Of a stretch of DNA of 41,150 nucleotides, positions 22,151 through 37,631 are shown piece by piece. The DNA is taken from positions 1 to 41,150 of IMG/VR virus record IMGVR_UViG_3300033141_001541. One strand, 5' to 3'. The notes under the pieces are model-generated. The model was not told the DNA's origin, searched no databases, and saw only the letters and a list, made by a program, of their open reading frames with translations. Numbering within the stretch: position 1 is the stretch's first letter; each line of letters starts with the position of its first letter. Source of the stretch: a virus. The position numbers were made by a program, and so were the translations under genes.

Positions 22151-22868
22151 TTCTTTTCCCTTTGGCTAAAAATTCGGCGTAGGGGTCTCTTTTGTTCAGC
22201 GGCTCAAATACGGTTTGCCATCCCCTTTCAATCGCCGTCTCGATCAGTTCTTTGGGATCGTATCCCTTCAAGCGGAGTAAGTTCAGTTTTTTGATAAACA
22301 GTTCTTGTGCTTTGTCCGACATCTGTTTACGGAGTTTTTTTCTGTGTTCCAGAAAATCTTTGAACAAATCACGGTCAAGCCAGTCCGGTAAAATCAGCTG
22401 GGTTTGAGAAGGGGGGGTAAGGGGGGGTTGTTTTTTATTATTGTCTTTATTGTCTTTTGTGTTTGTCGTTTTTGACAACGATTTGTTGTCGTTTTTGACA
22501 ACCCCTGTTGTCGTTTTTGACAACGTTGTCGTTTTTGACAACACCTTCCACTCTTTATAATTCTTGTTAAATCGGTATGTTGCGGTATTGCAGTTGTCGT
22601 TTTTGACAACGCAGTTGTCATTTTTGACAACAATGTTTTTTGAGATAAGCCCCCTTAACGCCCTGCACACGTTGCTTTTATTCATCCCCGTTGCTTCAAC
22701 AAATTGAGAGTTGGAAATAGAGTCTTCTTTCTTGTTGTAACCATACGTTTTGCGTATGATAAAATCTAAACACTGACGCTCTTCACCTGGTATCCGGTAT
22801 CTAATCAAGGCGTCCAAAATCTCGTTCGCTATTCGCGTGTGTCCGTTTTCAACTTGCGGCGATGGCAT
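22140..22868 (-). CDS. Replication initiator, phage O-like, with origin iterons in the gene
   Basis: 242 residues. The N-terminal domain MPSPQVENGHTRIANEILDA, then LIRYRIPGEERQCLDFIIRK and a winged helix (SNSQFVEATGMNKSNVCRAL) is the Phage_rep_O domain. The middle (about residues 85-150) is a low-complexity Asn/Lys/Thr linker, encoded by the iterons, with repeats such as VVKNDN and LSKTTT. The C terminus (LPDWLDRDLFKDFLEHRKKL) resembles the part of O that contacts the loader. The gene is AT-richer than neighbours. It probably binds its own iterons to open the origin. Confidence 0.82.
   Translation of the reverse strand: MPSPQVENGHTRIANEILDALIRYRIPGEERQCLDFIIRKTYGYNKKEDSISNSQFVEATGMNKSNVCRALRGLISKNIVVKNDNCVVKNDNCNTATYRFNKNYKEWKVLSKTTTLSKTTTGVVKNDNKSLSKTTNTKDNKDNNKKQPPLTPPSQTQLILPDWLDRDLFKDFLEHRKKLRKQMSDKAQELFIKKLNLLRLKGYDPKELIETAIERGWQTVFEPLNKRDPYAEFLAKGKRNET
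22421..22631. repeat. Six iterons and AT-rich segment: probable replication origin
   Basis: Six copies of GTTGTCGTTTTTGACAAC lie at 22463-22479 (first base divergent), 22485-22502, 22507-22524, 22525-22542, 22593-22610 and 22614-22631 (one changed base). Each is an inverted repeat GTTGTC/GACAAC around a six-base spacer. Spacings of about 18-23 bases place several on one helix face. An AT-rich tract lies at 22425-22460. All sit inside the initiator gene, as in lambda ori within O. Confidence 0.8.
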
Positions 22869-23675: not shown

Positions 23676-25058
23676 TTAAAACGCCTCCCCGCTATGCTTC
23701 ACCATGTACCGATAGACCTTGCCCAGATCTTCTTCGGTCACGACGTCCTTGTTCCGGGTCATCACATCCTTGCGCCATATCTCACGGGCCAGCTCGCTAC
23801 GCCGGAGCAGGTCCACCAGGTTGTAGAACGTGTCGCCGTCCCGGTACTTCACGCACGAAAGCAGGGCGTCAACTTCCTCGTCCACATCCGGCTCTTGCGG
23901 TTCCGGGTCAGTCTCCACGACCTGCTCAACGGGTCTCCCGGCAGCGTTGAAAGGGCAGGGGGTGTCATACAGATTGCCCCACTTCGCCATGGCCTCGTCG
24001 ATGATTTCCTGGGGTGCTTCGTGGAGGGTATCCAGATTTTTATGCACGAAAGTGGTGTAACCCGTGCCACGCAGTTTAATCCAATTATTCCGAGCCCATA
24101 TATGGCTTGGAACCTCTATCGGGGGGTTACCAGTGGCCGTAGGGTCCTTAGTGTGGGGTTCCCTCTTGCCGTTCAACCGCTCTTTCAGCCTGGCCGCCAT
24201 GTCCATAGTTTTGGCCTTCAGGTCTTCCCCGGCCGTTTGCGCGATGTAGTCCGCCCAAGTGGCTTCTCCGTCTCGAATGGTCTGAAAGACGGACCGGAGA
24301 TCGATTAGCTCTGCTGGCGAAACTGTCGATATGGTGTGCCCGAGGTATTTCTCGATTTCGCTTGGTTTCACCCCGATGGAGCTGAACGAATCCAGAATCC
24401 GCTTTTTCTCTCCTTCCGGGTCCTTCTTAATACCCTCTGCAATCGTCCTCCTGGCCACGTCCAGGGCTTCGTCGATAATATCCGAAGGAATCAGCCGGAG
24501 ACCCTCGTTGCGCTTCCCTTTGGAGATCCAGGCCGCCTCCTTCGTGGCCATCTCTTCCTCGGTGGCTTTCAAAATGTATACCTTATCTCCGTAGGAGTTG
24601 ACCCGCTCCCCGATCACGTCGTTCTCCCTCCCCGCTTTACTCCGTCGCTCGATTATCTTCTGGAGGGTGTAGTCTCGGGAATGGGTAATGTTGTTTTCCA
24701 TGTCTACGCAGGACACGCGGATCCGGCGCACCATTTCGTCTTCATATAGGATAAACGACTGAGTGGTGACGTTGCCCCAATAATTGAGCGCCACCTCCGC
24801 GAACCGAACGCTCGGTCCCCTGATCTTCTTCCCGCCGACGGGTTTGGCGTACTCAACCCGCTTCGCCATGTCCGTGCGACCACACGCCCGCAGGATGTTG
24901 TCCCGGGCGTCCATCTCGTTTCTCGGCTTGAGCAAAGCCATTTGATACCCGGCAAAGATCGCCGCTTTCGCCGCCTCTGCCGCAGCAATGGCAGAAGGGT
25001 CCGCAGCCATGAACGCCGTGTTTTTCTTCTGCACCCCGTATGTTGCCAATTCTTCCAT
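23676..25058 (-). CDS. Probable single-strand annealing recombinase
   Basis: 460 residues, AAGGAGGGAGAG before the ATG at 25058. LKPRNEMDARDNILRACGRT, then KPVGGKKIRGPSVRFAEVAL and NYWGNVTTQSFILYEDEMVR are the conserved opening of a large phage family seen next to YqaJ nucleases. RRTIAEGIKKDPEGEKKRIL and FSSIGVKPSEIEKYLGHTIS resemble the C-terminal helices of annealing proteins. It lies directly downstream of the exonuclease, the usual Exo/Beta or RecE/RecT pairing. The C-terminal 130 residues are acidic and variable. SSAP activity is inferred from the neighbour and pattern. Confidence 0.65.
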   Translation of the reverse strand: MEELATYGVQKKNTAFMAADPSAIAAAEAAKAAIFAGYQMALLKPRNEMDARDNILRACGRTDMAKRVEYAKPVGGKKIRGPSVRFAEVALNYWGNVTTQSFILYEDEMVRRIRVSCVDMENNITHSRDYTLQKIIERRSKAGRENDVIGERVNSYGDKVYILKATEEEMATKEAAWISKGKRNEGLRLIPSDIIDEALDVARRTIAEGIKKDPEGEKKRILDSFSSIGVKPSEIEKYLGHTISTVSPAELIDLRSVFQTIRDGEATWADYIAQTAGEDLKAKTMDMAARLKERLNGKREPHTKDPTATGNPPIEVPSHIWARNNWIKLRGTGYTTFVHKNLDTLHEAPQEIIDEAMAKWGNLYDTPCPFNAAGRPVEQVVETDPEPQEPDVDEEVDALLSCVKYRDGDTFYNLVDLLRRSELAREIWRKDVMTRNKDVVTEEDLGKVYRYMVKHSGEAF

Positions 25059-25076
25059 CTCTCTCCCTCCTTTTCA

Positions 25077-25994
25077 TTACTCCAAAAAATACGGCCTGAA
25101 CGCCCGGATGGGCTTTCCAAGCCTGTAAAACGCTTCCAGGTCTAACTCTGGGTGCGCCCTGGCGAACGCTTTGACGTCGAACGTCCGGCGTCCGTTCTGT
25201 TCTTTCCAGTAGATCCGGGCCCCCGCGCCCTCGGCCACAGACGCCCCGTGCTTCGTCATGATCTCCTGGATCTTGGCCTTGGCCGCGTCCTCGATCATCT
25301 TAGCGTCCTCGGCCAACCGCTTTGCTTCCTTGAGATCCTGGACGGCCTGGAACCAGTCGGGATCGTCCATCGTGACGACTTCACCCTGGGCCGCCAGCGG
25401 CAGGTTCAACTCGACTGGCTCCTGGTAAATCTCGGGGCGGATATTTTGCAGTACTTTGTTGTTCCAGAAGTCCGCGACTTTGGCTTCGATCATGGTTTGG
25501 ATCTCCCGGTCCGGCTCCAGGTCGAAGTACAGCAGCTGCCAGGAGTCATAATCCACCGTCGCGAACGTGCTCACGTCGTACCCGGTGAGCAGGAGGTATC
25601 CCTGGATTTGCAGCAAAGTGCTTCCGTCCAGGCCCTCCCGCTTGATCTTTCGGATCATGTGTGAGTTTCGGCTCTTGATCTCCAGCACGCCCGGGTGTTT
25701 CTGATCCAGCAGCTGCCGCCGGTCGATATGGCCAACCAGGAACGGCAGCGCCGGGTGCACGAACTTGACGCCATGCTTCTGAACCGCCCGGCCAGTTTCG
25801 ATGGAGTACTTCCTTGCGATAGTGTCCTCCATCATGTGCCCCCGCTCCATTTGTGGCGTTTGTTCCACGGTGGCCAGGCCCATCAGCCTGTCGAAGACAT
25901 CGCCGGCGTTCCGATACGGGTCCACGCCGCAGATCGCTCCCAAGTCGGAGCAGCCGACATTCCTTTTTAAAGTTTCTTCGATGGTTGCATTCAT
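25077..25994 (-). CDS. YqaJ/lambda-Exo-like 5'-3' exonuclease
   Basis: 305 residues, AAAGGAGGGAGAAGCA before the ATG at 25994. The PD-(D/E)XK core is complete: GCSDLGAICGVDPYRNAGDV near residue 14, MERGHMMEDTIARKY (acidic helix), FLVGHIDRRQ (catalytic Asp), VLEIKSRN (E-x-K) and LLQIQGYLLLTG (Q-x-x-Y). This matches lambda exonuclease and YqaJ viral recombinases. It resects DNA ends to make the 3' tails used by the annealing protein encoded next. Confidence 0.85.
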   Translation of the reverse strand: MNATIEETLKRNVGCSDLGAICGVDPYRNAGDVFDRLMGLATVEQTPQMERGHMMEDTIARKYSIETGRAVQKHGVKFVHPALPFLVGHIDRRQLLDQKHPGVLEIKSRNSHMIRKIKREGLDGSTLLQIQGYLLLTGYDVSTFATVDYDSWQLLYFDLEPDREIQTMIEAKVADFWNNKVLQNIRPEIYQEPVELNLPLAAQGEVVTMDDPDWFQAVQDLKEAKRLAEDAKMIEDAAKAKIQEIMTKHGASVAEGAGARIYWKEQNGRRTFDVKAFARAHPELDLEAFYRLGKPIRAFRPYFLE

Positions 25995-26009
25995 TGCTTC
26001 TCCCTCCTT

Positions 26010-26120
26010 TCACATCTGTATAGATTCACTTTGCTTTCTCCCTCTCACAATCTTCACATCCAGCATCGACACCTTCATCCATGAGCAATAAACTTCAAGC
26101 TCAAGCGTTAAACTTGGCAT
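26010..26120 (-). CDS. 36-residue peptide before the exonuclease
   Basis: ATG at 26120 follows a G-run (GAGGGGGGTGCC) and opens MPSLTLELEVYCSWMKVSML, then DVKIVRGRKQSESIQM. It overlaps the stop of the upstream gene by 13 bases and ends 16 bases before the exonuclease start. Part of the frame is made by a 26-base repeat (26016-26041), so it may be a by-product of duplication rather than a real gene. Confidence 0.3.
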   Translation of the reverse strand: MPSLTLELEVYCSWMKVSMLDVKIVRGRKQSESIQM

Positions 26121-26362
26121 GGCACCCCCCTCAGAAATACACCGCGCTTACAGCGCGGATCTTCACTCGCCAAAAACTCTATCGTTTCTAGCACTCTGTC
26201 TGACATGAATCCGATGTCTTCATCATCCAAATACTTTCTGATTTTCTGATAGGCTTCGGTTGGATCGCTAGCTACGACAAAGGAGTCGCCATAGGAGATG
26301 CCCATCACAGCTGATTGCATCCCTTTGAGTTTTACTCTGTACAGATTCACTTTGCTTTCTCC
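26016..26362. repeat. Two 26-base direct repeats, each with a ribosome site and GTG start
   Basis: Positions 26016-26041 and 26337-26362 differ at one base. On the minus strand both read GGAGAAAGCAAAGTGAATCT and then RTACAG. The right copy supplies the ribosome site and GTG start of the 26108-26350 gene. The left copy leads only to a 12-codon frame that ends at the exonuclease start. It looks like a duplication of a gene start. Confidence 0.7.
26108..26350 (-). CDS. Small early protein, unrecognised
   Basis: 80 residues from the GTG at 26350, chosen for AAAGGAGAAAGCAAA directly before it; codons further upstream are inside an intergenic repeat. VNLYRVKLKGMQSAVMGISY, then GDSFVVASDPTEAYQKIRKY, with LDDEDIGFMSDRVLETIEFL. 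One alpha-beta domain with a 'V-ASDP-EAY-KIR-YLD' segment, of a type common in small phage early proteins. Function unknown. Confidence 0.65.
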   Translation of the reverse strand: MNLYRVKLKGMQSAVMGISYGDSFVVASDPTEAYQKIRKYLDDEDIGFMSDRVLETIEFLASEDPRCKRGVFLRGVPCQV

Positions 26363-26384
26363 TTTTAAAATTGGTGCAGGCCGG

Positions 26385-26540
26385 TCAAGTATAGAAAGCC
26401 ACATTGTCATTTATAACAAACAGCACTCTCCCTTCAGAGTCTAACACGGTTTGTCTATGAATCTTTATCGGATAGTATTCCCCAGAGGAGTCTATGTTAT
26501 TGTATTTATCTTCTAATTCATCCCTACCTTCTTTGCTCAT
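26385..26540 (-). CDS. Small early protein, unrecognised
   Basis: 51 residues from the ATG at 26540, with AAAGGAGGAGCA directly upstream. MSKEGRDELEDKYNNIDSSG, then EYYPIKIHRQTVLDSEGRVL and FVINDNVAFYT: charged helix followed by two or three beta strands. No family recognised. The DNA is AT-rich compared with the recombination genes. Confidence 0.6.
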   Translation of the reverse strand: MSKEGRDELEDKYNNIDSSGEYYPIKIHRQTVLDSEGRVLFVINDNVAFYT

Positions 26541-26575
26541 TGCTCCTCCTTTATCGGTTTTGTCTGTCAATACTG

Positions 26576-26878
26576 TTAATCATCTGGGTGTATGCCATAT
26601 CTCCTGAACCACCACCATTTATCAGAGTTGTATTCCTTCCATTTTTTTACCCATTTTTTTCTTGTGTTTGTTGGGCCTTCATCACAGAATTTACAAACAA
26701 GCGGGTTCCCCGGTGCTTCTTTCAGGTTGTTAGTATATTGCCATCGCCAGTAATCACCGGGCTTAAAATGTCTTCCGCAAAAACCACACCGAAAATGCCT
26801 GCCGTCTTTCTTCCCGCCCCACGGCGCCTGGCAATCCTCTATTGTGGCTGTTCGTGGCTTTCCGTCTGTAAAACTCAT
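26576..26878 (-). CDS. Zinc-finger early protein
   Basis: 100 residues, start at 26878 (GGAGGAGAAATAGGCC upstream). KKDGRHFRCGFCGRHFKPGD, then YWRWQYTNNLKEAPGNPLVC and KFCDEGPTN give two C-x-x-C knuckles 33 residues apart. The C-terminal part is basic and Trp-rich (KWVKKWKEYNSDKWWWFRRY). Likely a nucleic-acid-binding early protein, cytosolic. Confidence 0.7.
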   Translation of the reverse strand: MSFTDGKPRTATIEDCQAPWGGKKDGRHFRCGFCGRHFKPGDYWRWQYTNNLKEAPGNPLVCKFCDEGPTNTRKKWVKKWKEYNSDKWWWFRRYGIHPDD

Positions 26879-26974
26879 GGCCTATTTCTCCTCCTTATAA
26901 TTGGTGCAGGCCGGATTCCCCACCCGGCCCCTTCTCCTGGTTTCCTCGGCTTGGCTATACACGTTGTCAGCCGC

Positions 26975-27187
26975 TTAACCATCCGAACAGGAGGAGAGTT
27001 TTCCCTCCACACACCATCCCGGCGCTGACACCCCGCTGCACCAATCGCACCGTTGAGGCTTGTCGTCCTCAAACGCACTATTTATCGCCAGTACCAGCCC
27101 TGGAACAAGATTGCATCCATATTGGATTGACCCGTCACCAAACCATTGAGAGGTTAAGTGGCGGCAACCATAACAATAATCATCCAT
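26975..27187 (-). CDS. Cys-rich small early protein
   Basis: 70 residues: MDDYCYGCRHLTSQWFGDGS, then IQYGCNLVPGLVLAINSAFE and CDWCSGVSAPGWCVEGKLSS. Seven Cys, several in C-x-x-C pairs, indicate one or two zinc sites. AGGAGGG lies 17 bases before the ATG, which is far, so the start is uncertain. Unrecognised. Confidence 0.55.
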   Translation of the reverse strand: MDDYCYGCRHLTSQWFGDGSIQYGCNLVPGLVLAINSAFEDDKPQRCDWCSGVSAPGWCVEGKLSSCSDG

Positions 27188-27227
27188 GTTTTCTCGCGTT
27201 TTATCCCTCCTTAATTAAGGCCGAAAA

Positions 27228-27455
27228 TCAAACATCCCATCCGACCTGTTGGGTCACCAGCGTTCGCTTCCCAACCTGCCAAACCAAGGGTTCCTTCCCG
27301 AAGGGCTGGCCGGGTCCATAGTAAAACTGCTCCCAGCCTGATCTTGAAACAGCCTGTTCTTGTGACATATCACCATAGAAGTACACCGCATTGATCCACG
27401 ATGCCCCATGATCGCCCGCTTTAAATCGCCCTCTAAATACTTCTTTCGCTCCCAT
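27228..27455 (-). CDS. Small early protein, unrecognised
   Basis: 75 residues from the ATG at 27455, AAAGGAGGGGAATAAG upstream; earlier in-frame codons lie inside the upstream gene. MGAKEVFRGRFKAGDHGASW, then INAVYFYGDMSQEQAVSRSG and WEQFYYGPGQPFGKEPLVW. A compact aromatic-rich beta protein. Function unknown; it belongs to the string of small early genes controlled by the leftward promoter. Confidence 0.65.
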   Translation of the reverse strand: MGAKEVFRGRFKAGDHGASWINAVYFYGDMSQEQAVSRSGWEQFYYGPGQPFGKEPLVWQVGKRTLVTQQVGWDV

Positions 27456-27477
27456 CTTATTCCCCTCCTTTCTCCTT

Positions 27478-27720
27478 CTATCCCCACACCACCAGCACAA
27501 ATACCGCCCCCAGCAGTATTCCCGCCAAGCAGACAGCAAACAGCTTTAGAGCGGACAACCCGGCCTCCAGGTAATCCTCTAATTCCAAGTTTCTCTCCCG
27601 CCGCGTAATCTGGCCGCTCTCGGCCAATCTCCTGAAATAGGGTTCTAACTCGTGGGGCTCCAGGGTGCGGAACGGCAGCTCCTTATCCAAGTCAATCGGG
27701 ATTGGTTTTCCTTCGGCCAT
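27478..27720 (-). CDS. Tail-anchored membrane protein
   Basis: 80 residues from the ATG at 27720, AAAGGAGGACGTC upstream. A charged cytosolic part (PIDLDKELPFRTLEPHELEP, YFRRLAESGQITRRERNLEL) is followed by one C-terminal membrane helix (ALKLFAVCLAGILLGAVFVL, then VVWG). An early-expressed tail-anchored protein could act at the inner membrane, for example in exclusion or host takeover. No family recognised. Confidence 0.65.
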   Translation of the reverse strand: MAEGKPIPIDLDKELPFRTLEPHELEPYFRRLAESGQITRRERNLELEDYLEAGLSALKLFAVCLAGILLGAVFVLVVWG

Positions 27721-27895
27721 GACGTCCTCCTTTCCAACCCTTGCGCGGACTAACAAACGATTCCACGCGGCCGATATACGGTTTGCGCCGCGCTGCCAGC
27801 GCCTTTCGCTGGAGCTGCAGCGCCTTTATCGCTTCGTCAATCGCGCAAAGCGCCTCGTCAATCTCGGATATCTTCGGGAGTTCTTCTAGTTTCAT
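27692..27895 (-). CDS. Small coiled-coil early protein
   Basis: 67 residues from the ATG at 27895. MKLEELPKISEIDEALCAID, then EAIKALQLQRKALAARRKPY is a helical coiled-coil-like segment with a basic C-terminal tail (SPRKGWKGGRHGRRKTNPD). The ribosome site is weak. It overlaps the membrane-protein start by 29 bases. Unrecognised. Confidence 0.55.
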   Translation of the reverse strand: MKLEELPKISEIDEALCAIDEAIKALQLQRKALAARRKPYIGRVESFVSPRKGWKGGRHGRRKTNPD

Positions 27896-27918
27896 TATTT
27901 TCTAGTAGTTTATAGTGG

Positions 27919-28125
27919 TTACTGACTTGACTCATCCCGCTGCTGATGTATAAATGCCCACAGTGCTGGTGAGTCCAATTTTTGGAGCAGGTATTTCCGC
28001 ACGGCGCGGGAGATGAATTTGCTTCTCGTGTAATCGTACCGCTCGCAGTAGATGTCGATGTCAAGCAAAAGGTCTGAGGGGATGGAGATGCTAATCGTTT
28101 CGGTTTGGTCTCTGCTGGGTATCAT
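27919..28125 (-). CDS. Ribbon-helix-helix (CopG/Arc-like) regulator
   Basis: 68 residues. ETISISIPSDLLLDIDIYCE, then RYDYTRSKFISRAVRKYLLQ is a ribbon-helix-helix DNA-binding fold: one beta strand (residues 8-14), then two helices with the S-[RK]-S/K-F-I turn. It overlaps the Cro-like gene by 35 bases, so they are co-transcribed. Such proteins are frequent second regulators in phage early operons. Confidence 0.75.
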   Translation of the reverse strand: MIPSRDQTETISISIPSDLLLDIDIYCERYDYTRSKFISRAVRKYLLQKLDSPALWAFIHQQRDESSQ

Positions 28126-28354
28126 CGAAAAGCTCCTTTGCGTCCACGCCGTAGATAGCGGCGATGGCGTTTTGTATATCCGGGTTGGTGCGCTCTCCGT
28201 TGATGGTCTTGGTGATGGTCTGCCGGGACACTTTGAGGCTCCGGGCGATTTCCGGCTGGGTAATGCCCGTGAGCTTGTGCAGCGACTTACGGATGTTCAC
28301 GAGCGGGAATCCCAGGAGCTTGAGTTGAGCGATCGCAAGTTGAACCTGGTCCAT
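28091..28354 (-). CDS. Cro/CI-type XRE regulator
   Basis: 87 residues from the ATG at 28354, AAAGGAGACAACCCCAAA upstream. KLLGFPLVNIRKSLHKLTGI, then TQPEIARSLKVSRQTITKTI and NGERTNPDIQNAIAAIYGVD is an XRE helix-turn-helix. The reading frame is open upstream to the ATG at 28537, which also has AAAGGAGA. That extension would cross the structured RNA and has no protein-like pattern. It is the first gene of the leftward early operon and divergent from the repressor, so it is the likely Cro. Confidence 0.78.
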   Translation of the reverse strand: MDQVQLAIAQLKLLGFPLVNIRKSLHKLTGITQPEIARSLKVSRQTITKTINGERTNPDIQNAIAAIYGVDAKELFDDTQQRPNRND

Positions 28355-28397
28355 TTTGGGGTTGTCTCCTTTGTTACGGTGTGATAAGGGGACTCTT

Positions 28398-28535
28398 GGG
28401 CGGGGTGTGTCCGTTGCGTCTGAAGTAGTCCGGGGTGCCTCGGCAGCCCCGCACGAAACGAGACCGGCAAGGTCTCTCTGCGCCGAGTACCGGAGAGATA
28501 CCCTTGTCGTTCGTGTCGCAACGGAAGCCCCGCCC
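28398..28535 (-). ncRNA. 138-nt structured leader RNA (three-way junction)
   Basis: Minus strand. Basal helix: CCCCGCCC (28528-28535) with GGGCGGGG (28398-28405), then CGCAACGG (28517-28524) with CCGTTGCG (28411-28418), 16 perfect pairs around one internal loop. Arm 1: TTCGTG/CACGAA (28510-28515/28452-28457), CCTTG/CAAGG (28502-28506/28468-28472) and GAGAGA/TCTCTC (28493-28498/28473-28478). Arm 2: CCCCG/CGGGG (28447-28451/28431-28435) with TGCC/GGCA inside. Arms 1 and 2 are directly adjacent and could stack. A 12-base unpaired strand (28419-28430) joins arm 2 to the base. It lies between the early promoter and cro. Confidence 0.65.
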
Positions 28536-28571
28536 ATGTTTGAGTCTCCTTTGATATGGACTTTAGGGCGT

Positions 28572-28599
28572 AGGATACATTTAAAATAGAGCGTGTCAA
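28572..28599 (-). promoter_or_regulatory. Leftward early promoter with operator-like repeats
   Basis: On the minus strand TTGACA (28599-28594) and TATCCT (28577-28572) are 16 bases apart, a good sigma-70 promoter pointing at cro. The 10-base direct repeat CATTTAAAAT at 28578-28587 lies in its spacer and recurs at 28610-28619 across the repressor start. These are plausible binding sites for repressor or Cro. A weaker rightward promoter (TTGATA at 28551, GATACA at 28574, 17 bases apart) may drive the repressor. Confidence 0.65.
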
Positions 28600-28617
28600 G
28601 AAAAAAATGCATTTAAA

Positions 28618-29034
28618 ATGAAGAAAGATTTATCTGACATCCCAATTCAAGATATATGTGAAAGGGTTCGGACTCTTAGGGATGGGATATTAAAATTAGA
28701 TACAAGCTCAATTTGTTCCTTGTTATCAATTAATTACACAACATATATGACCTATGAAAACAACAGAATCCCACCGTCAGACGTTCTTTATAAAATTAAG
28801 AAGCTGTTTCCAGATAAAGTGGATTTAAACTGGCTGATCCTCGGAAAAGAGGGTCGAGGGGACGAAAAACAGAAGGAAGGAGTTTTTATGGGAGTGCATG
28901 AGGACCTTCTCAGGGACCTACTAAGACGCGTGCAGAAGTTAGAGGATATGTGCCAACAGTTTTTAGCGGAGAAGGACTTTAAAAAAAACAGCCCCGAAAA
29001 ACCCGGAGAAGGTGAAAAGAAAAAAACGGGGTAA
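28618..29034 (+). CDS. Phage repressor (XRE HTH, coiled-coil C terminus)
   Basis: 138 residues. KKDLSDIPIQDICERVRTLR, then SSICSLLSINYTTYMTYENN is a helix-turn-helix; the C-terminal half has a coiled coil (LRDLLRRVQKLEDMCQQFLA) and a Lys-rich tail. There is no LexA-type peptidase domain, so induction would not be by RecA self-cleavage. No ribosome site precedes the ATG, and the repeat overlaps it, so a short or leaderless message is likely. The AT-rich DNA differs from flanking genes. Confidence 0.7.
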   Translation: MKKDLSDIPIQDICERVRTLRDGILKLDTSSICSLLSINYTTYMTYENNRIPPSDVLYKIKKLFPDKVDLNWLILGKEGRGDEKQKEGVFMGVHEDLLRDLLRRVQKLEDMCQQFLAEKDFKKNSPEKPGEGEKKKTG

Positions 29035-29070
29035 CATAATTTTGTTCCCCACCAACAAAGGAGGGCCGCC

Positions 29071-29412
29071 ATGAAGACCATCAGCACCATAGCACTTGCC
29101 ATATCATGTGTTATGCTCCCGGCCGTTGCCCTGGCAGACGGCACGGACGTGTTCAGGTGGAACATCTGGGAGGACCGGATTGAAAACGCTCCGGGTAATT
29201 CCCGGCCCCGGTACAACCCCATGGCCGACGAGTGGCAGGTGGCGCCGGACTATTACAAGAACAAGTGGAACCACATGGAAGACCGCCATCGCTACGTCCA
29301 CCCGGATGCTGAGATTAATTTCAACCCCATGCAGGATGAATGGCAGTACCGGCGCCCCGGCGGCAAAAACCGCTGGAATCCCTGGACGGACCGCTGGGAA
29401 TACGATCGGTGA
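29071..29412 (+). CDS. Exported Trp-rich repeat protein, lysogenic conversion candidate
   Basis: 113 residues behind AAAGGAGGGCCGCC. MKTISTIALAISCVMLPAVA plus LADG is a signal peptide with an A-L-A cut site. The mature part is a set of degenerate repeats of the form [WYF]-N-x-[MW]-x-D-x-[WH]: RWNIWEDR, RYNPMADEW, KWNHMEDRH, NFNPMQDEW and RWNPWTDRW. It sits between repressor and integrase on the lysogeny strand and its stop overlaps the int GTG. A periplasmic or surface role in the lysogen is likely; function unknown. Confidence 0.7.
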   Translation: MKTISTIALAISCVMLPAVALADGTDVFRWNIWEDRIENAPGNSRPRYNPMADEWQVAPDYYKNKWNHMEDRHRYVHPDAEINFNPMQDEWQYRRPGGKNRWNPWTDRWEYDR

Positions 29413-30503
29413 GTGTCCACCAGAAGCCGGGCGGCCGCTGGGCCGTATCCTATTATATAGGTGGCCGGCAGCGGTGGCGGTACTTCGGCCGGGGGAATGA
29501 GGCCGAACAGGCGGCAAGGGTGTTCGACGCGACGATCCGGGCCACCAGCTCCCGGTCGAAGTCGGGGCCAACGTTTACCCAGCTGGTGAACCGTTACGTC
29601 CATGCCAAAGCCGGTTTGGTGGCCGAATCCACCATGTGTAATTGGGAGTGGAAGTTCTCCCAGGTGATCCTCCCGGAGATCGGCCACCTCATGGCCGAAA
29701 CCATCGACGAGTCCACCCTGGACCATTACGTCACCACCCGGTTGCAACGGGTCAAGCGGGTGACGGTGGCCCGGGAGTTGTCCGACATCCAGGCGGTGTT
29801 GAACTGGGCGGCCAATCGGCGGTTTATATCCCAGAACCGGGCGGCCGGTTATCGGAAGCCCAGGCGGGACGACGCCATTATTGACCCGCCGTCCCTGGAG
29901 GAGCTCGCCGCGATATGGGCACACGCCAGCCCCCAGCTCCGGCGAGCGGTCCTCCTGGTCTATTTTACCGGGATCCGGCCCGGGCGGTCCGAGTTGCTGG
30001 CGCTGACATGGGACGACTATCACCCGGACACCGGGATTTTGACCGTCCGGTCCGCAGCCAAGGGGGGCCCTCGGGTCCGGCGGATCCCGGTGCACAAACA
30101 GCTTGCAGAGCATCTCAATAGATGGTATGAAGCGGACGATTCGGCTTATCCAGGCGCTCAAATTCGGCCGATCGTCCACAATAAAGGGCAGAGGGTGGGA
30201 TCATTGAAAACCACCTGGAAATCGACGCTCAGGCGAGCAAAAATACAACGGCGGCTGCGTATGTACGACCTGCGGCACGCCGCCATCACGGCCCTGGTGG
30301 CCCGGGGGGACCTCAAGACGGTCTCGAGTATCGCCGGCCACAGCCGGGAGGACACCACGCTGCGGGTATATGCCCACTCGTCGCCCGACCTGGCCCGGGA
30401 ACTGGTGGACCGCGTCCCCGCCCTGGAGCTTGACAATGTAAAAACCGAAAATCTTAGCCAGGTATCGCAGCAAACGCAGTCGGGAAGTGGCTCAGTCTGG
30501 TAG
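29409..30503 (+). CDS. int: Tyrosine integrase
   Basis: 364 residues from the GTG at 29409, chosen because it overlaps the previous stop (GTGA). An ATG at 29340 is possible but lies inside the signal-protein gene. VHQKPGGRWAVSYYIGGRQR is an N-terminal AP2-like arm-binding strand set. PTFTQLVNRYVHAKAGL opens the SAM-like core-binding domain. The catalytic domain has TGIRPGRSELLALTWDD (Arg I), RSAAKGGPRVRRIPV (Lys), YDLRHAAITAL (Arg II; Tyr in place of the usual first His), GHSREDTTLRVYAHSS (His III and the nucleophile Tyr). The last codons and the TAG stop are formed by the tRNA-Pro attP core. Confidence 0.88.
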   Translation: MSVHQKPGGRWAVSYYIGGRQRWRYFGRGNEAEQAARVFDATIRATSSRSKSGPTFTQLVNRYVHAKAGLVAESTMCNWEWKFSQVILPEIGHLMAETIDESTLDHYVTTRLQRVKRVTVARELSDIQAVLNWAANRRFISQNRAAGYRKPRRDDAIIDPPSLEELAAIWAHASPQLRRAVLLVYFTGIRPGRSELLALTWDDYHPDTGILTVRSAAKGGPRVRRIPVHKQLAEHLNRWYEADDSAYPGAQIRPIVHNKGQRVGSLKTTWKSTLRRAKIQRRLRMYDLRHAAITALVARGDLKTVSSIAGHSREDTTLRVYAHSSPDLARELVDRVPALELDNVKTENLSQVSQQTQSGSGSVW

Positions 30504-30519
30504 AGCACAGCGTTCGGGA
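30481..30519 (+). other. attP core: 5' half of a tRNA-Pro(CGG)
   Basis: The 39 bases CGGGAAGTGGCTCAGTCTGG, then TAGAGCACAGCGTTCGGGA match the acceptor 5' strand, D-arm and anticodon stem-loop of a bacterial tRNA-Pro with anticodon CGG. Homology stops at the end of the anticodon loop; the following GGCGGG does not pair with CAGCG. The int stop TAG (30501-30503) lies in the D-loop part. Phage genes flank both sides, so this is attP in free or circular form, not an occupied site. Confidence 0.75.
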
Positions 30520-30540
30520 GGCGGGAGTTAGGTATAGTCA

Positions 30541-30566
30541 AGCGTCTGAAATCAGGCGCTTTTTTA
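30541..30566 (+). terminator. Intrinsic terminator after int
   Basis: AGCGTCTGA (30541-30549) pairs with TCAGGCGCT (30552-30560) with one G-T pair, followed by TTTTTTA. It lies 38 bases after the int stop and ends the rightward lysogeny transcript before the converging giant gene at 30600. Confidence 0.8.
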
Positions 30567-30599
30567 TTTCATACTGACAATGGCGGACAATTAGCCGGC

Positions 30600-33500
30600 T
30601 CACAGGTCCGGCCGGCCCCTCATCAGCTTCTGTTGCAGCTTTTGGAGGTCGTCAATCTTTTTCCGGTATTCCTTTCGGTCGATCTTTTTCTGCATATACT
30701 CCCGGGTCAGCCGACCGCGCTTTTCCGATATCCGGCGCGTCAGCCGCTTCCGGGTGTTGATCTCGAACTCCTTTAGCTTCTGCATATTGGCCGGGCCCAG
30801 CTTGATCCCCAGCAGCGTACTGAGCATCGCCGTTTGAAATTCCACTGGCCGGTCCGCCCAATCGCGCACGTCCTTTCCCAGGAACGTGTTCTCGAACCCG
30901 GTCTTGAGTTTATTGAAATTATGTCCCCCCGGTGCCAGCGGCGGGGAAATCTCCTTCCAAGTGTAATCAAGGTATGTCCCCAGGATTTCCGCTGCGGCGC
31001 TGGCAAAGTCCACTTCCAGCTCCGCCTTGAGGGTCTCGTCGATGATGTCCTTCCCGGTGAACGGATCCCGGTTGGCAAGAAACGCGGCGATCAACTGCAA
31101 GGTGGGCATGTTGGGTAAAAGCGCCCGGAGCGGCAAGGGGCTTTGCCCCCACTTTTCGGCCAGGTCCCCGTAAGGCAGGATGTATGCCATGTCCAGGTAC
31201 AGGTCGTTGCCCCATTTATCCTGGAACGGCATCTTGACGTGGACGTAGGGCCCGGCCGCGACGCCCAGCTTCTGCTGCTGCCAGGGCGCCAGGAGCCGGC
31301 GTTCTTTCTCGGCCTGGGCCTCCGTCTCCCCCAGGGCCATTTGCGCGTACCGCTCGGCCCCGTACATGGCGGCCACCACGGCGGCCGTCTTCCAGGGCTT
31401 GCGGATGGTCATCTCGGCGGCCATGGGCAGCGCCTTGTAAGTGAAGACCACAAAAGGGCTCCACCACCGCTTGGCCAGCTTCACCCAGGGCGGGATGTCT
31501 CCGTAATTGAAAATGAACTTTTCAGCCTTCCGGGCGGCCTCGTCCACGCTCATGCCGGCGTCCCGGGCCTTGATGAATACGGCCATCTTGAAAAGGTGCT
31601 CGTTTCCCTGGTACAGCTCGGCAGGCAGGCTCATGGCCTTGCGGATCCAGCCTTTCAGTTTGCCGGCGTCCCGCAGCTTTCCCAGTTCGTCCCTGAGCTG
31701 GTGCAGTTCGCTGGTCACCCAGGAATTGTTGAACAGGCCCCATTCCTTGGCGGCCCTGAAATAAGGATCCACCTCTCCCCTGGCCACGGCCCGGGCAGCC
31801 TTCCCGTAAGTCTTTAGGTCCGCCGGGTTCACGTCCCCGTAAAACGCGAGCAGGGTGTTGCTCATAAAGTTCCGGGCATGGGTCGCCGGGTTCCAGATGA
31901 CCTTCCACGCCTTCCAGGTGCCCAGCGCCTTGTCGTACAGCCTCCCTGCCCCGGTTCGCCACTCGTGCACCTCCCGCAGGTCGTTCCAGACGTCTTTTCT
32001 AACCCATTTGCCGTCCAGCGCCCCGAACCGTTCGTCGGACACCTTGATAAAATTCTTGGGAACATCAACGCCCGGCCGTTTCACGATAGTCCATTCCGGT
32101 TGGTTCGCAATCGCCTCGAACAGCCTCGCCCTCAGGACGTCCGACTTCTGCACGCCGATCCCCTTGGCGATGGGATAAGGTGCGGTCTCGATCTCCCCCA
32201 TGAGACGTCGGATCTCGTAAGGGATGTCCTCCCGCATGTGGGCGTACCCCAGACTCATGGCCTTCCGGCCGGCCCTGGCCTCGGCGCGCGCCCTCTTGCC
32301 CTTCCCGAGCATCATTTCCAGGACGGCGATCTGTTCCTCGATCTCCTGGATCCCCTCCGGGTGCCCCTTCCGGCTTTGAACCTTCAACTCTCGCAGCTGC
32401 TCCCGGACTATCTTGCGCTGACTCGGGGTTAAGCCTTCGTGCTTGTCGTAAAACAGCGGGGCATACTCTTTGGCGCTGCCGTAATGGTAATAGTTGCGCC
32501 GGCGCTGGTGCAGCTCCCGGAACTTTTGATAGGCCAGCTCCTGGATTTCTTCCTTCGCCGCCTTTGCCGGGATGTCGTCCACGCCGATGCCGAAAGCGTA
32601 CTTGCGCCAGGCTTCCGTCTTGGCCTCGATGTCCGGCACAGCCATGGTCAGCTTTTTGTTCAAGTCGGCGCGTTGCCTCCGGGTCAGTTTGTCGAACCGG
32701 GAATATCTGAGAATGTCGTGCTTTTTCATGTCCTCCCGGAGTTCGGTAAATATCTCCCGGACCCGCTCGGCTTTTTTTTGCAGCTCGGGGGATGCCGTGG
32801 TGGACCCTTTCATCACCTGCATCAGGCGCTTTTGCTCCAGCTTGGTGGGGGCCAGTTTCTCCAGCTCTTTACCGAGTTCCACGGCCTTTTGCCACTCGGT
32901 TTCCGATGCCCGTTGAAATTCGCGCATCAGGTCACCGAAGTCTTTGTCCCGGTCCAGGCCGAGCCAGTACCGGGCTTCTTCATTGACAATCCGGTGGTTG
33001 ACGTACTGCTTGGCCTTGTCCAGAAACGGGGAGGCGAACCCCTGGTCCCAGGCGTTGGCGATCTTCCGGGCCAGGCGCCCGGCGGGTTTCAGGGCGGCGC
33101 CGGCGGCGGTGCCGGCCATGGCACCGATGAGGACTTTCTTGAGGTCGGAGCGTTCCGGGTTCTCCCAGTCAATACCGGTAGCACCGCCGACAGCGGCCCC
33201 GACAGCGGTGCCGGTGGGGAATCGGAGGGTGCCGTATTCCCTTAACTCCCGGGCGGCCTTTTTCCGCGCCCCAGGCATGGCCGAAGACTTGGGGAGGCTG
33301 CCTTGATCCGCCATGGATATATAACCCCCGTCCTTGGCCTTATAAATAATGTCCTGAAACGTGATATCGCTCCGTGAAAAATCAACGAGTTTCTTTATAT
33401 AGTCAAGCCGGGCGGGGGAGACTTCGTCACTCGATACGAATATGGCGCCCCGGGCGCCGGCCTGTTCTGCTTTCTGGATCAACCTGGCCGTGAACGCCTT

Positions 33501-36500
33501 CGATTCGCTCCCGGGGATATAGTCAATGTATCCAATCGGCTTGTTTTTGATATTCAGCAAAACGATGCCGGTCTTGCCGGACAGGTGCTCTCGCACATAC
33601 TTAACACCTTCATAAGGGTTTGTCAGGGCCCCTTCCGGCTCCGGGACGTCTTTAAAATACCGCTCCACGATGGGAACCCGCTTTTTAACGCCAGGCCCGG
33701 CCGCTTTTTTTAGGTCCGCCGGGGCGCCCACGGATGGTGCCAGGGCGGCGTATTTGTTCCCAGCGATGATGACATGGTCGGAATCAATACCCTTAAACGC
33801 CAGGATCTGGTCAAGGGTGTCCGCCAGGGTGATATCGTCGATGGACGGGGCCGGGTTGCCGCTTGGATGGTTATGAATAAAATAGACTTTCTTGGCGCCG
33901 GGGATATTCAATACATGGCCGGCGGTCTCAAAGGGCGCCACGGATGCTTCGCCGGAGGTCCCCTTCGAGTAGCGGTGGACCTCTAAGATCTTTCCTTTGT
34001 CGTCCGTGGCGATGATGTAGAATTGCTCTTGGGCGGACTTTCTGAGGTGTCTGACGAGACTTGCGGCGTCGGATGTGTTGCGTACGGTGCCTGAGGCGTG
34101 TAGGTGCCCAGTCTCTCTTGTCGTGATATGGGGCTGGGATAAAGCGGCAACGGAATGACCTTTCCCTTCCGTCTCGAATTTAAGGTCAAGCTGGAGTTGT
34201 TGCGGCGGTTCTTTGACAAGATGGGTGACTCCTTTGTGGTAAGTATAGTCCCCTTTTTGCGTTTTTGCAAGGGGCTCGACAAAGGCGTCCCGGAACGCCT
34301 CATCCTTTCCCTTGACCTCGAACATCTTGATCTGGTTTTTCACGTCCGAGGCCGCGTCGGAGGCAAATGCCTTGAGGGCGTCGGAAAAGGCGCGCTGGCT
34401 TTTCCCTTCGAGCCACTTGGCAAGGGTCACGGTCTCCATGTCCGCTTTTTTGGCGTCCTCACCGAATAGGCCGCGCTGGGCCAGGTATTGCTCAATGGAA
34501 TCAAACCGGCCGGCCTTGATCTCCACGAGCAACTCTGTGGCGCTTTTAATCTTCGGCGTAATGTCCCACTGTTCCCCCCGCGCCTTGATCCGGGAGATGG
34601 GCGTCAGGGTAGCCGCTACCTTATTTATAACCGTCCTCGGGGCCACTTCCAGCAGGTCCGGGTCGTCAATCACAGACCCGATAATCGTCCGCTCGATCAT
34701 GCGCTTGCCGTCTTCGTTCAAAACGCCGTATTTTTGGTTGACGTAGCGGTTAGTCTCGGATCGTGCAATCGCGCCGTCGTCCACGAGCCGGTCGATCAGC
34801 CGCGTTGCATCCGGCCGGGCCAGGTATTCGCGCAGGGTCTTGTCGGATCCTGTCAATATGTCCCCGATATACTCCAGGGTGCGCGGAGACACGTTTTTCC
34901 CCATGGACGCCGCCCGGGCGGATTCGCCCATCTCCTGGGTCATGGCCTTGTTGAGTTCAGAGGACAACCGGGACAGCGCCTTTTGTCCTTCCACGTCCTC
35001 GTCCATGAGACGGATCAGCATGGGGGACTTCATTTTCTTGACCGCCTCACGGTCGATGCCGAACTGACCGGCACGGTCGACCAGCGCCTTCCGGTAATTG
35101 TCGGCGGCTCCCTCCGTGTAGGCCCTCTGGATCAGCATGGTCCGGGCGTTTCCGCCGGCCGCCAGCATCTTCGGGGTTACCACGGGCGGGCCGTTCACCG
35201 CATCCGGATTATTTGTCAGCAGGTAGTCGGGATTGATCTTTTTGGCCCACTGGATCACCTTGTATTGCTCCGCCTTGTCCAGGTGATAGGTGCGTTCCTG
35301 GAAGCCCTGAGGATAATCCGGGCGCTTCGCAAAGCTCATGGGGTCGTGGGATGCAACCACGTCCTCGGCCTCCACCAAGGCGTATTTCGCCGGGATGCCG
35401 TCCGGGTTCCTGGGGGAATAAACACGGGTCGGGGCCCCGGCCTGCATTTTTCCCTTGACATCCTTTTTAAGAGGTGTTATGTTCCCAGTGCTTGCAGGAG
35501 GTTTACCGATGTCAGAAGTTTTCTTACTCAAAGAGGCCGACAACGTTTTCGTCCACGACGAAAGCGCGGACAAGATTTTCCGGCTCGAAGGCGACAAGCG
35601 GTTCGAGATTCGGTCGTCCGACGCCAGGGCCCGGATCATGCTAAATTCCTTCCCCATATCCAAAGAAGCCGCACTCCGCATCGCCGGCGCGTCCGCATAG
35701 TACGCCGCGTCGTAAAAAGCGCGGTTCAATTCCCTTAACTCGCTCCGCAAGCCCTGGAGTCCCTCCCGGGCGGTCTTGTCTTCCGTCTTTAAAATATCGC
35801 CGTCAACACTTCGGATCGCCTCGTATATCTTATGGCCAAGCCCCATCTTGGCATCAAATAGCCTGTCGGTGGTCAGCTGGATCTCGGAGATATGCCCGTT
35901 GGACAGCTTAACGTTCATGCTGATGTCCCGGTAACCGTCGGCAGGGCTGTCGAAGCGGTTGGCGAAAGACACAACGGGATACTTTCCCTTGATCCGCCGA
36001 AACGCCCGGAGCACCTCGTCCTTGTCTTTAAAGGTCACCGTTGACGCCAGCAGGTCCTTGATTCGCGATGCATCTCCTTGATATTCGTTCGACGCCTTTT
36101 GAATCGTCCGCTTTTTGGATTTCAGCCGGCCGATCTCTTTGGGCCGGAACCGGGGTGTCCCCCCGAATTCGTTTGCAATCCGCCTGGTAACGCTTTCATG
36201 CTCCTCTGCCACTTCGTCGGCTATCTTGTATAGATCGTCGATGGTCTTGATCTTTTGCCGGAGGGTTTTTTCCTCCTCGACGATCGCCTTCTTGGCGCCA
36301 CGGCGGATCAGCTCGGTTGTCGTGGCGTTTCCGTCTAGCACTACCAGCTTGTCGTCCGGGCGGCGATACACCCGAATAGGTGCGCGCTTCTCACCCGTCC
36401 CGGCCTCCGCCGCATCCATGAGGCGCCGGGCCTTTTCGATTTTCGCCTTGGGCCTTTCCAGGACTTCCAGGTCGTCGATGTCCACTTCAATCGAGCCCTC

Positions 36501-37631
36501 GGTGGGCTTTATGAACTTATGGGCGACGTCCTGGTCCCACTCGACCTCGGCCTCCGGGATCTTTAACCGTGCTTCCGGGATACCGGCCGCTGGCCCTTTT
36601 TCCGGTTGGAGTTGTAGATCCGGGCCGCCTTCTCCTTGGCCTTCCGGTCGGAAAGCCCTTGGTCCTTGAATTTGTCCCTCATCCGCTCGTAAGCCTTCGG
36701 CATCTGGGATCACCCCCTCTTGCTGGATTTTCCATTTTTTCATCAAGTCCGCCGGCAGGTTTTTCCTTGCCAGTCCGGGGAACTTCCGGGCCGCCCTTCG
36801 TACCGCATCCAGTATCTTTCTTTCCGCCAGGCTTTCCACCGTCAAGCCAGATAACAACCCGCCGCCCACGGCCACCAAGAGCGCCGCCTCCGGGTGTTTC
36901 GCCTCCAGGGCTTCCGCCCCGGCACCCGTCACTGTTTCTCCCAGGACGTCGATCCCGGCGGCCAGGGCTCCCCTTCCAAGGCCCGTGCCAATCTGGCGAG
37001 CGATGCCCTTCCCGGCGGCCCTTGCCGAAGACAGCCCGATTTTACCACCGGCGCCGAACCCGGCAGACGCCGCGATGGTCGGGTCAACCCACGGCTCGGT
37101 CTCCCCGAACAGCTCCTGGTAGATGTCCTCGTCGGACCTTCCTGTTTTTCGCTGAAATTCAATAAATTGCTTGCGCCGGGCGATCTCCCGGGTCATCTCT
37201 GCAATCTGCTCGTTCAGCTTTGCAAGCCCGGATCCGGGTTGCTCCGGCATCACGGGTTCTTCCGTGACGCGTTCCGGGAAGATATCCAAACCGGGGGCGG
37301 CGGGTTCCCGGGAAGGACCCTTGAGGGCGGCCATCGCCCTTTGCGCCTGTTCCTGTTCGAGCCTTTCCAGTTCCTGCTGCATCCGGGCCATCGCGGATTC
37401 GGTCACCATGCGGTAGTCAGGTTCCTGGGGCGGACCCTGATCAACGAACCCCATTGACGGCCCGGCGGCCATGGTGTCCACGCTGGGGTATTGGGGCGGG
37501 GGCGTTTCCTGCGGGGAGACCTCCGTCGTCCCGGTCCCCGTTGTCGGTTTTTCGTCGTCCCAAACCACGGCGGAAGGATCAATCTCCTCCCGCTCGTCGT
37601 CCCATACCACCTCTGCGGGGTTAATCGGCAT
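30600..37631 (-). CDS. Giant polyvalent/ejection protein with RelA/SpoT-like, ParB-like and JAB domains
   Basis: 2343 residues from the ATG at 37631 (GGGAG eight bases upstream; the TTG at 37637 is less likely). N terminus: two tandem PxxVVWDDE repeats. About residues 220-275 are Gly/Ala-rich. Near 400-460 a ParB-like piece (DKLVVLDGNATTTELIRRGA). About 510-630 is RelA/SpoT-like (DISMNVKLSNGHISEIQLTT). 645-709 is a Ser-rich linker coding opposite the antisense gene. 730-1000 is DdrB-like ParB (YLLTNNPDAVNGPPVVTPKM). About 1190-1290 is RadC/JAB with HNHPSGNPAPSIDD. 1475-1515 has glycine zippers. The remainder is helical with WNPATHARNFMSNTLLAFYG. This organisation matches polyvalent proteins delivered with phage DNA. 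Confidence 0.75.
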   Translation of the reverse strand: MPINPAEVVWDDEREEIDPSAVVWDDEKPTTGTGTTEVSPQETPPPQYPSVDTMAAGPSMGFVDQGPPQEPDYRMVTESAMARMQQELERLEQEQAQRAMAALKGPSREPAAPGLDIFPERVTEEPVMPEQPGSGLAKLNEQIAEMTREIARRKQFIEFQRKTGRSDEDIYQELFGETEPWVDPTIAASAGFGAGGKIGLSSARAAGKGIARQIGTGLGRGALAAGIDVLGETVTGAGAEALEAKHPEAALLVAVGGGLLSGLTVESLAERKILDAVRRAARKFPGLARKNLPADLMKKWKIQQEGVIPDAEGLRADEGQIQGPRAFRPEGQGEGGPDLQLQPEKGPAAGIPEARLKIPEAEVEWDQDVAHKFIKPTEGSIEVDIDDLEVLERPKAKIEKARRLMDAAEAGTGEKRAPIRVYRRPDDKLVVLDGNATTTELIRRGAKKAIVEEEKTLRQKIKTIDDLYKIADEVAEEHESVTRRIANEFGGTPRFRPKEIGRLKSKKRTIQKASNEYQGDASRIKDLLASTVTFKDKDEVLRAFRRIKGKYPVVSFANRFDSPADGYRDISMNVKLSNGHISEIQLTTDRLFDAKMGLGHKIYEAIRSVDGDILKTEDKTAREGLQGLRSELRELNRAFYDAAYYADAPAMRSAASLDMGKEFSMIRALASDDRISNRLSPSSRKILSALSSWTKTLSASLSKKTSDIGKPPASTGNITPLKKDVKGKMQAGAPTRVYSPRNPDGIPAKYALVEAEDVVASHDPMSFAKRPDYPQGFQERTYHLDKAEQYKVIQWAKKINPDYLLTNNPDAVNGPPVVTPKMLAAGGNARTMLIQRAYTEGAADNYRKALVDRAGQFGIDREAVKKMKSPMLIRLMDEDVEGQKALSRLSSELNKAMTQEMGESARAASMGKNVSPRTLEYIGDILTGSDKTLREYLARPDATRLIDRLVDDGAIARSETNRYVNQKYGVLNEDGKRMIERTIIGSVIDDPDLLEVAPRTVINKVAATLTPISRIKARGEQWDITPKIKSATELLVEIKAGRFDSIEQYLAQRGLFGEDAKKADMETVTLAKWLEGKSQRAFSDALKAFASDAASDVKNQIKMFEVKGKDEAFRDAFVEPLAKTQKGDYTYHKGVTHLVKEPPQQLQLDLKFETEGKGHSVAALSQPHITTRETGHLHASGTVRNTSDAASLVRHLRKSAQEQFYIIATDDKGKILEVHRYSKGTSGEASVAPFETAGHVLNIPGAKKVYFIHNHPSGNPAPSIDDITLADTLDQILAFKGIDSDHVIIAGNKYAALAPSVGAPADLKKAAGPGVKKRVPIVERYFKDVPEPEGALTNPYEGVKYVREHLSGKTGIVLLNIKNKPIGYIDYIPGSESKAFTARLIQKAEQAGARGAIFVSSDEVSPARLDYIKKLVDFSRSDITFQDIIYKAKDGGYISMADQGSLPKSSAMPGARKKAARELREYGTLRFPTGTAVGAAVGGATGIDWENPERSDLKKVLIGAMAGTAAGAALKPAGRLARKIANAWDQGFASPFLDKAKQYVNHRIVNEEARYWLGLDRDKDFGDLMREFQRASETEWQKAVELGKELEKLAPTKLEQKRLMQVMKGSTTASPELQKKAERVREIFTELREDMKKHDILRYSRFDKLTRRQRADLNKKLTMAVPDIEAKTEAWRKYAFGIGVDDIPAKAAKEEIQELAYQKFRELHQRRRNYYHYGSAKEYAPLFYDKHEGLTPSQRKIVREQLRELKVQSRKGHPEGIQEIEEQIAVLEMMLGKGKRARAEARAGRKAMSLGYAHMREDIPYEIRRLMGEIETAPYPIAKGIGVQKSDVLRARLFEAIANQPEWTIVKRPGVDVPKNFIKVSDERFGALDGKWVRKDVWNDLREVHEWRTGAGRLYDKALGTWKAWKVIWNPATHARNFMSNTLLAFYGDVNPADLKTYGKAARAVARGEVDPYFRAAKEWGLFNNSWVTSELHQLRDELGKLRDAGKLKGWIRKAMSLPAELYQGNEHLFKMAVFIKARDAGMSVDEAARKAEKFIFNYGDIPPWVKLAKRWWSPFVVFTYKALPMAAEMTIRKPWKTAAVVAAMYGAERYAQMALGETEAQAEKERRLLAPWQQQKLGVAAGPYVHVKMPFQDKWGNDLYLDMAYILPYGDLAEKWGQSPLPLRALLPNMPTLQLIAAFLANRDPFTGKDIIDETLKAELEVDFASAAAEILGTYLDYTWKEISPPLAPGGHNFNKLKTGFENTFLGKDVRDWADRPVEFQTAMLSTLLGIKLGPANMQKLKEFEINTRKRLTRRISEKRGRLTREYMQKKIDRKEYRKKIDDLQKLQQKLMRGRPDL
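35455..35483 (+). promoter_or_regulatory. Consensus promoter for the antisense gene
   Basis: TTGACA at 35455-35460 and TATGTT at 35478-35483 are separated by exactly 17 bases. TGT lies directly before the -10 (an extended -10). A start near 35490 would put AGGAGG (35496-35501) and the ATG (35509) within the first 20 bases of the transcript. It lies inside the giant gene but points the other way. Confidence 0.7.
35509..35700 (+). CDS. Small antisense-embedded protein of 63 residues
   Basis: ATG at 35509 with AGGAGG seven bases upstream and a near-consensus promoter 26 bases before that. MSEVFLLKEADNVFVHDESA, then DKIFRLEGDKRFEIRSSDAR and ARIMLNSFPISKEAALRIAG, ending ASA. It reads like a compact acidic protein with beta strands followed by a helix, no signal peptide and no low complexity. 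The opposite strand there codes for a Ser/Thr/Lys-rich linker of the giant protein. Both frames share wobble positions, so base composition alone cannot prove coding. A lysogeny-expressed regulator, immunity or anti-defence protein is possible. Confidence 0.6.
   Translation: MSEVFLLKEADNVFVHDESADKIFRLEGDKRFEIRSSDARARIMLNSFPISKEAALRIAGASA

Follow-up and report, generated by a model that had tools for sequence, protein, structure and literature searches.

Within the 5′ leader of a temperate phage's early (cro) mRNA, the stretch at 28386-28551 is predicted to fold into a long branched hairpin, and we tentatively propose that this is a cis-acting leader element, acquired by insertion, that masks a spare first translation start. 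As predicted, the fold exceeds what base composition would give, lies in the 5′ leader and masks a start, as would be expected of such an element. On this proposal, a self-complementary stretch of about 165-180 bp would separate the operon's original start signal from a second one that now does the work. The transcript from the early promoter would fold into the hairpin, burying the first ribosome site and its AUG, and cro would be translated from the second site. The structure would act in cis to keep translation off the spare start, and it may also make the message more stable or serve as a target of RNase III. We infer folding in the cell, selection of the fold, the insertion itself and any effect on cro from the observations that follow.

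The DNA analysed (the window) is the whole of IMGVR_UViG_3300033141_001541, which is one virus record, 41,150 bases long. Judged by its sequence, the source is a temperate, tailed phage; the record carries head, portal, terminase and O-like replication genes, as well as genes for a YqaJ recombinase and a tyrosine integrase. Between 28.1 and 29.0 kb lies a divergent switch, with a repressor-like gene on the + strand and a cro-like helix-turn-helix (HTH) gene on the − strand. The features of this switch are the following:

28091-28354, − strand: cro-like helix-turn-helix gene, 87 aa (Pfam HTH_3; phage repressor PHROGs)
28572-28599, − strand: putative early promoter, TTGACA-16-TATCCT (by consensus match alone)
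28575-28587, no strand assigned: probable operator copy 1, ATACATTTAAAAT, within the promoter spacer
28607-28619, no strand assigned: probable operator copy 2, ATGCATTTAAAAT, at the repressor start
28618-29034, + strand: repressor-like gene, divergent from cro, encoding 138 aa (by position and a weak match, E 1.9e-4, to a PHROG of transcriptional regulators)

The early promoter is the sole promoter-like site in the switch region and matches the consensus well, and it places the element at about +30 to +180 of the transcript. The near-identical 13-mers (ATRCATTTAAAAT) at the two operator positions are situated as two operators of a repressor-cro switch would be. No clear ribosome site precedes the repressor gene, whose mRNA may be leaderless. 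Downstream of cro, at 27919-28125 (− strand), is a small gene with a weak HicB-like antitoxin match; the lysogeny module that we call L115, described below, also has a small gene at this place. Between the repressor and integrase genes, 29071-29412 (+ strand) encodes a small protein that has recurring Trp-rich motifs and probably a signal peptide; Pfam and PHROG gave no match to it, and it is possibly expressed from the prophage. A 2,345-aa reading frame at 30600-37637 (− strand) has RadC-like and ddrB-ParB-like domains, and its product is likely to be a large internal virion or anti-defence protein. Within the O-like replication gene, at 22462-22648, there are about five copies of a palindromic repeat, GTTGTCGTTTTTGACAAC, which are probable iterons of the phage replication origin; this region is also among the most structured places of the contig.

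The original prediction described a 138-nt element at 28398-28535, in which a perfect 16-bp basal helix closes two adjacent arms. A closed three-way-junction fold with two such arms is indeed predicted there on both strands (MFE −77 kcal/mol on the + strand and −70 on the − strand; z −6.3 and −4.7; 0 of 200 shuffles equal), but the perfect helix proved to be two 9-bp helices, GGGCGGGG/CCCCGCCC and CCGTTGCG/CGCAACGG, around a 3x5 internal loop. The limits also had to be widened to 28386-28551, as an outer helix had been missed in which AAGGAGACTC (28551-28542) pairs with GAGTCCCCTT, from pair 28386-28551 to pair 28395-28542. Nine of the ten positions of this helix are paired on the mRNA strand, and all ten, including one G-U, on the + strand; the pairing probability is about 1 across GGAGACUC, save for an A-C mismatch. 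With the outer helix included (28387-28551), the MFE is −91.7 kcal/mol on the + strand (z −6.80) and −81.0 on the − strand (z −5.35), again with 0 of 200 shuffles equal, and the closing stem comes to roughly 28 pairs. A tRNA or tmRNA search matched neither, and these identities were rejected. The predicted parts of the element are the following:

28386-28551, − strand (drawn on the mRNA strand): whole folded element (MFE and shuffles of 28387-28551)
28386-28395, no strand assigned: outer helix, one arm (GAGUCCCCUU in the mRNA), partner 28542-28551
28542-28551, no strand assigned: outer helix, other arm (AAGGAGACUC in the mRNA), holding most of the first ribosome site
28397-28405, no strand assigned: basal helix I, arm, partner 28528-28536 (pairs common to the folds of both strands)
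28410-28418, no strand assigned: basal helix II, arm, partner 28517-28525
28428-28454, no strand assigned: arm A of the three-way junction (predicted fold)
28458-28514, no strand assigned: arm B of the three-way junction, long and imperfect (predicted fold)

The element had been said to begin at the AUG of a dummy reading frame with a good ribosome site and to be followed by a similar site before cro. Both sites were found, and they are alike at 14 of 16 positions:

28545-28552, − strand: first ribosome site, AAAGGAGA (from sequence; predicted to be masked in the folded mRNA)
28365-28372, − strand: second ribosome site, AAAGGAGA, presumed working site of cro (from sequence; ordinary opening cost)
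28355-28537, − strand: first AUG and 61 in-frame codons into cro, judged non-coding (codon score; no tblastn match)

The fold predicted for the leader pairs the first ribosome site with a probability near 1, and the predicted cost of opening it (28553-28525) is 26-28 kcal/mol. The second site would cost 7-10 kcal/mol, in a phage where ten other genes give 1.75-11.4. Between the two AUGs, 61 codons stand open in the cro frame, and two other frames are open there too; the codon score of the 61 codons, −0.34, compares with 0.45 ± 0.27 for coding and −0.45 ± 0.32 for non-coding windows. A tblastn search of the extension against phages gave no match. Because the first site is buried at this cost and the extension is non-coding with no phage match, the first start looks dead in this model, and the second looks ordinary. 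A protein-coding N-terminal extension of cro was rejected on the codon score and the lack of a phage homologue, and conservation of the extended 149-residue frame as protein, which would have told against the original prediction, was thus not observed.

The likeness of the two ribosome sites is the joint highest among 903 pairs of upstream regions in the phage. One unrelated pair ties with it, however, so a duplication of the site is only suggested. Moreover, the 14/16 direct repeat, whose copies lie 180 bp apart, overlaps the ribosome sites and is therefore partly forced by function.

Two ways in which the leader might control cro were considered and rejected. Trimming of the leader produces no consistent drop in the predicted opening cost of the second site, which argues against derepression of cro through leader cleavage; as trimming would not free this site, no switch of cro translation is predicted. 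Sequestration of the cro AUG by the 5′ end, through a 6-bp GUCCAU/AUGGAC helix, would shift the opening cost by only 0.6-1.7 kcal/mol.

The stability of the fold was compared with chance by energy, since a plain inverted-repeat score proved uninformative: shuffles score equally high, and the element was not separated from them. After correction for composition, the + strand of the element ranks first and the − strand sixth among 7,452 in-register scanning windows of the contig, a rank that is favoured by the fitting of the register to the element. No window in three dinucleotide-shuffled copies of the contig was as low: the minimum there was −21.2, whereas the element scores about −26 and −23. 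Among 21,018 scanning windows in other fetched DNA (319 kb, phage and bacterial), on the other hand, 22 were equally extreme, which, from the way in which these windows cluster, we estimate as roughly one equally stable place per 35-40 kb of related DNA. About one very stable fold is thus to be expected in 41 kb, and stability by itself proves nothing. What is distinctive is the place of the fold, exactly between the early promoter and cro, rather than its stability.

The integrase led to L115, a related lysogeny module of another phage (L115:2085-3269) in which the order of genes is as in this phage: integrase, small gene and repressor, followed by a divergent cro-like gene and a small gene. 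The cro-like proteins are 25% identical. L115 is without the folded leader; its repressor-cro gap is 108 bp, against 263 bp here, and shows no structure beyond chance (z 0.61). This short, unstructured leader is consistent with an insertion in the present phage. The earlier proposal that the element was inserted between two copies of a translation start is therefore supported as to the insertion, but the tied likeness leaves the duplication of the start no more than suggested.

Searches of phages, plasmids, IMG/VR and some 780 sampled genomes turned up no relative of the element. The DNA of the region gave no match, or only short chance-level ones, against phages and plasmids. Scans of IMG/VR with the cro, repressor, YqaJ and portal proteins retrieved no relatives; relatives were retrieved with the downstream 460-aa protein, the terminase and the integrase, none of them with the leader. 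The exact arm GGGCGGGGNNNCCGTTGCG had 30 chance matches in IMG/VR, 0 of them with the partner arm within 300 bases. A single-sequence covariance model found no relative among the fetched loci. Sampled genomes of Myxococcota and Pseudomonadota (379 + 398; these may not be the phylum of the host) contained neither a relative of the element nor a close relative of cro, and the scattered matches in one of the samples were each shorter than 50 bases, which is chance level for that many genomes. There is no second copy in the 41,150-base record. With no relative found, there is no covariation to back the leader reading.

Rfam covariance models matched no family, either in the whole window at the gathering threshold or in 28300-28640 at E<=10. 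The C4 antisense RNA occurs in phages P1, P7 and P22. Like the present element, it is a structured leader RNA of an immunity or early operon in a phage; the element here is larger, has a long closing stem and has no antirepressor gene shown downstream. The C4 family (RF01695; PMC2864571) was unmatched even at E<=10. C4 RNAs carry stretches complementary to the ribosome site of the gene that they control. Here GUCUCGUUU, which is part of arm B, can by reading be matched to the complement of AAAGGAGAC at 8 of 9 positions, a likeness that may be due to chance, and it is itself largely paired in the fold. The leader of phage lambda N has an RNase III hairpin, and the element here resembles it as a long, double-stranded hairpin in an early leader, ahead of a ribosome site; in our phage, however, trimming of the leader is not predicted to make the cro site more accessible.

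A further candidate is the putRNA, which brings about terminator read-through via the zinc-binding domain of the RNA polymerase β′ subunit. A put-like antitermination RNA in the early transcript of our phage would bind RNA polymerase and let terminators be passed. The place just downstream of the early promoter and the two adjacent arms would suit a structured early-transcript RNA of this kind, of which putL and putR of the temperate phage HK022 are examples. The HK022 putRNA, however, is about 70 nt long, with two adjacent stem-loops and no closing stem (PMC9378689), whereas the element here has 165 nt and a closing stem of considerable length. In positions 24000-33000 of HK022, which may not include a put site, the single-sequence model found no match. 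The C4 and antitermination-element identities are thus not supported, and we regard a put-like function as improbable.

The main competitor of the leader reading is that the element is a mobile or selfish palindromic insertion (MITE-like), which duplicated the ribosome-site region and whose fold is a functionless by-product of inverted repeats, tolerated in the leader. MITEs and palindromic elements can insert in reading frames, and the present element resembles them in its inverted arms at both ends, its shortness, its lack of coding and the frame that it leaves open. The 16-bp near-direct repeat with the joint-highest likeness, the absence from L115 and the isolated occurrence all fit such an origin. 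MITEs are expected in multiple copies, however, and the element is single in the record, has no partner-armed copy in IMG/VR and is absent from the sampled genomes of two phyla (which may not include that of the host); its terminal arms also have no identical flanking duplication. We consider this explanation possible, if doubtful, and nearly as likely as a cis-acting leader.

Less likely than either, though next in order, is a functional + strand RNA antisense to the cro leader. By pairing with that leader it would favour lysogeny, in the manner of P22 sar, lambda OOP or C4. The molecule would be either a small antisense transcript or a section of an extended repressor mRNA leader that starts at a promoter inside or behind cro. 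The better fold and first rank of the + strand point this way, as do the wobble pairs. Some wobble pairs are usual in natural RNAs; the union of the two folds has five, all on the + strand, where the mRNA strand has 0 and carries A-C mismatches in their place. An mRNA fold with mismatches and no wobbles is the opposite of the trace expected from selection on the mRNA, and the split hints weakly that selection acted on the antisense strand or on neither, and not purely at the level of the mRNA. For a split of 5 to 0 the two-sided p is about 0.06, and no more than two or three of these pairs lie in solid helices, the others being marginal. The + strand also has no promoter-like site upstream, no terminator-like site and no Rfam match. 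A slightly smaller chance is given to an undescribed family of branched regulatory RNA, antisense to or within the cro leader, that would tune the choice between lysis and lysogeny. Least probable of all is a DNA-level site for recombination, replication or packaging, acting as a folded single strand or a cruciform. Both strands are self-complementary, as this would require, but the probable replication origin lies elsewhere, at the iterons, and the integrase gene is 0.8 kb off, with the promoter and the repressor gene between. Our ranking, made with low confidence, places the cis-acting leader at the head on account of its promoter position, its stability, the masking of the first site, the non-coding extension, the gap in L115 and the 14/16 sites; it is weakened by the 0 wobbles of the mRNA, by the recurrence of equal stability and by the lack of a predicted cro switch.

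If the RNA is functional, it would add an RNA layer to the decision switch of a temperate phage at a place where L115 has nothing, and it would provide a test case for a leader structure that shuts off one start but not the following one. Should it be a mere insertion, it would show how a phage early operon can survive a 165-bp palindrome in its leader.
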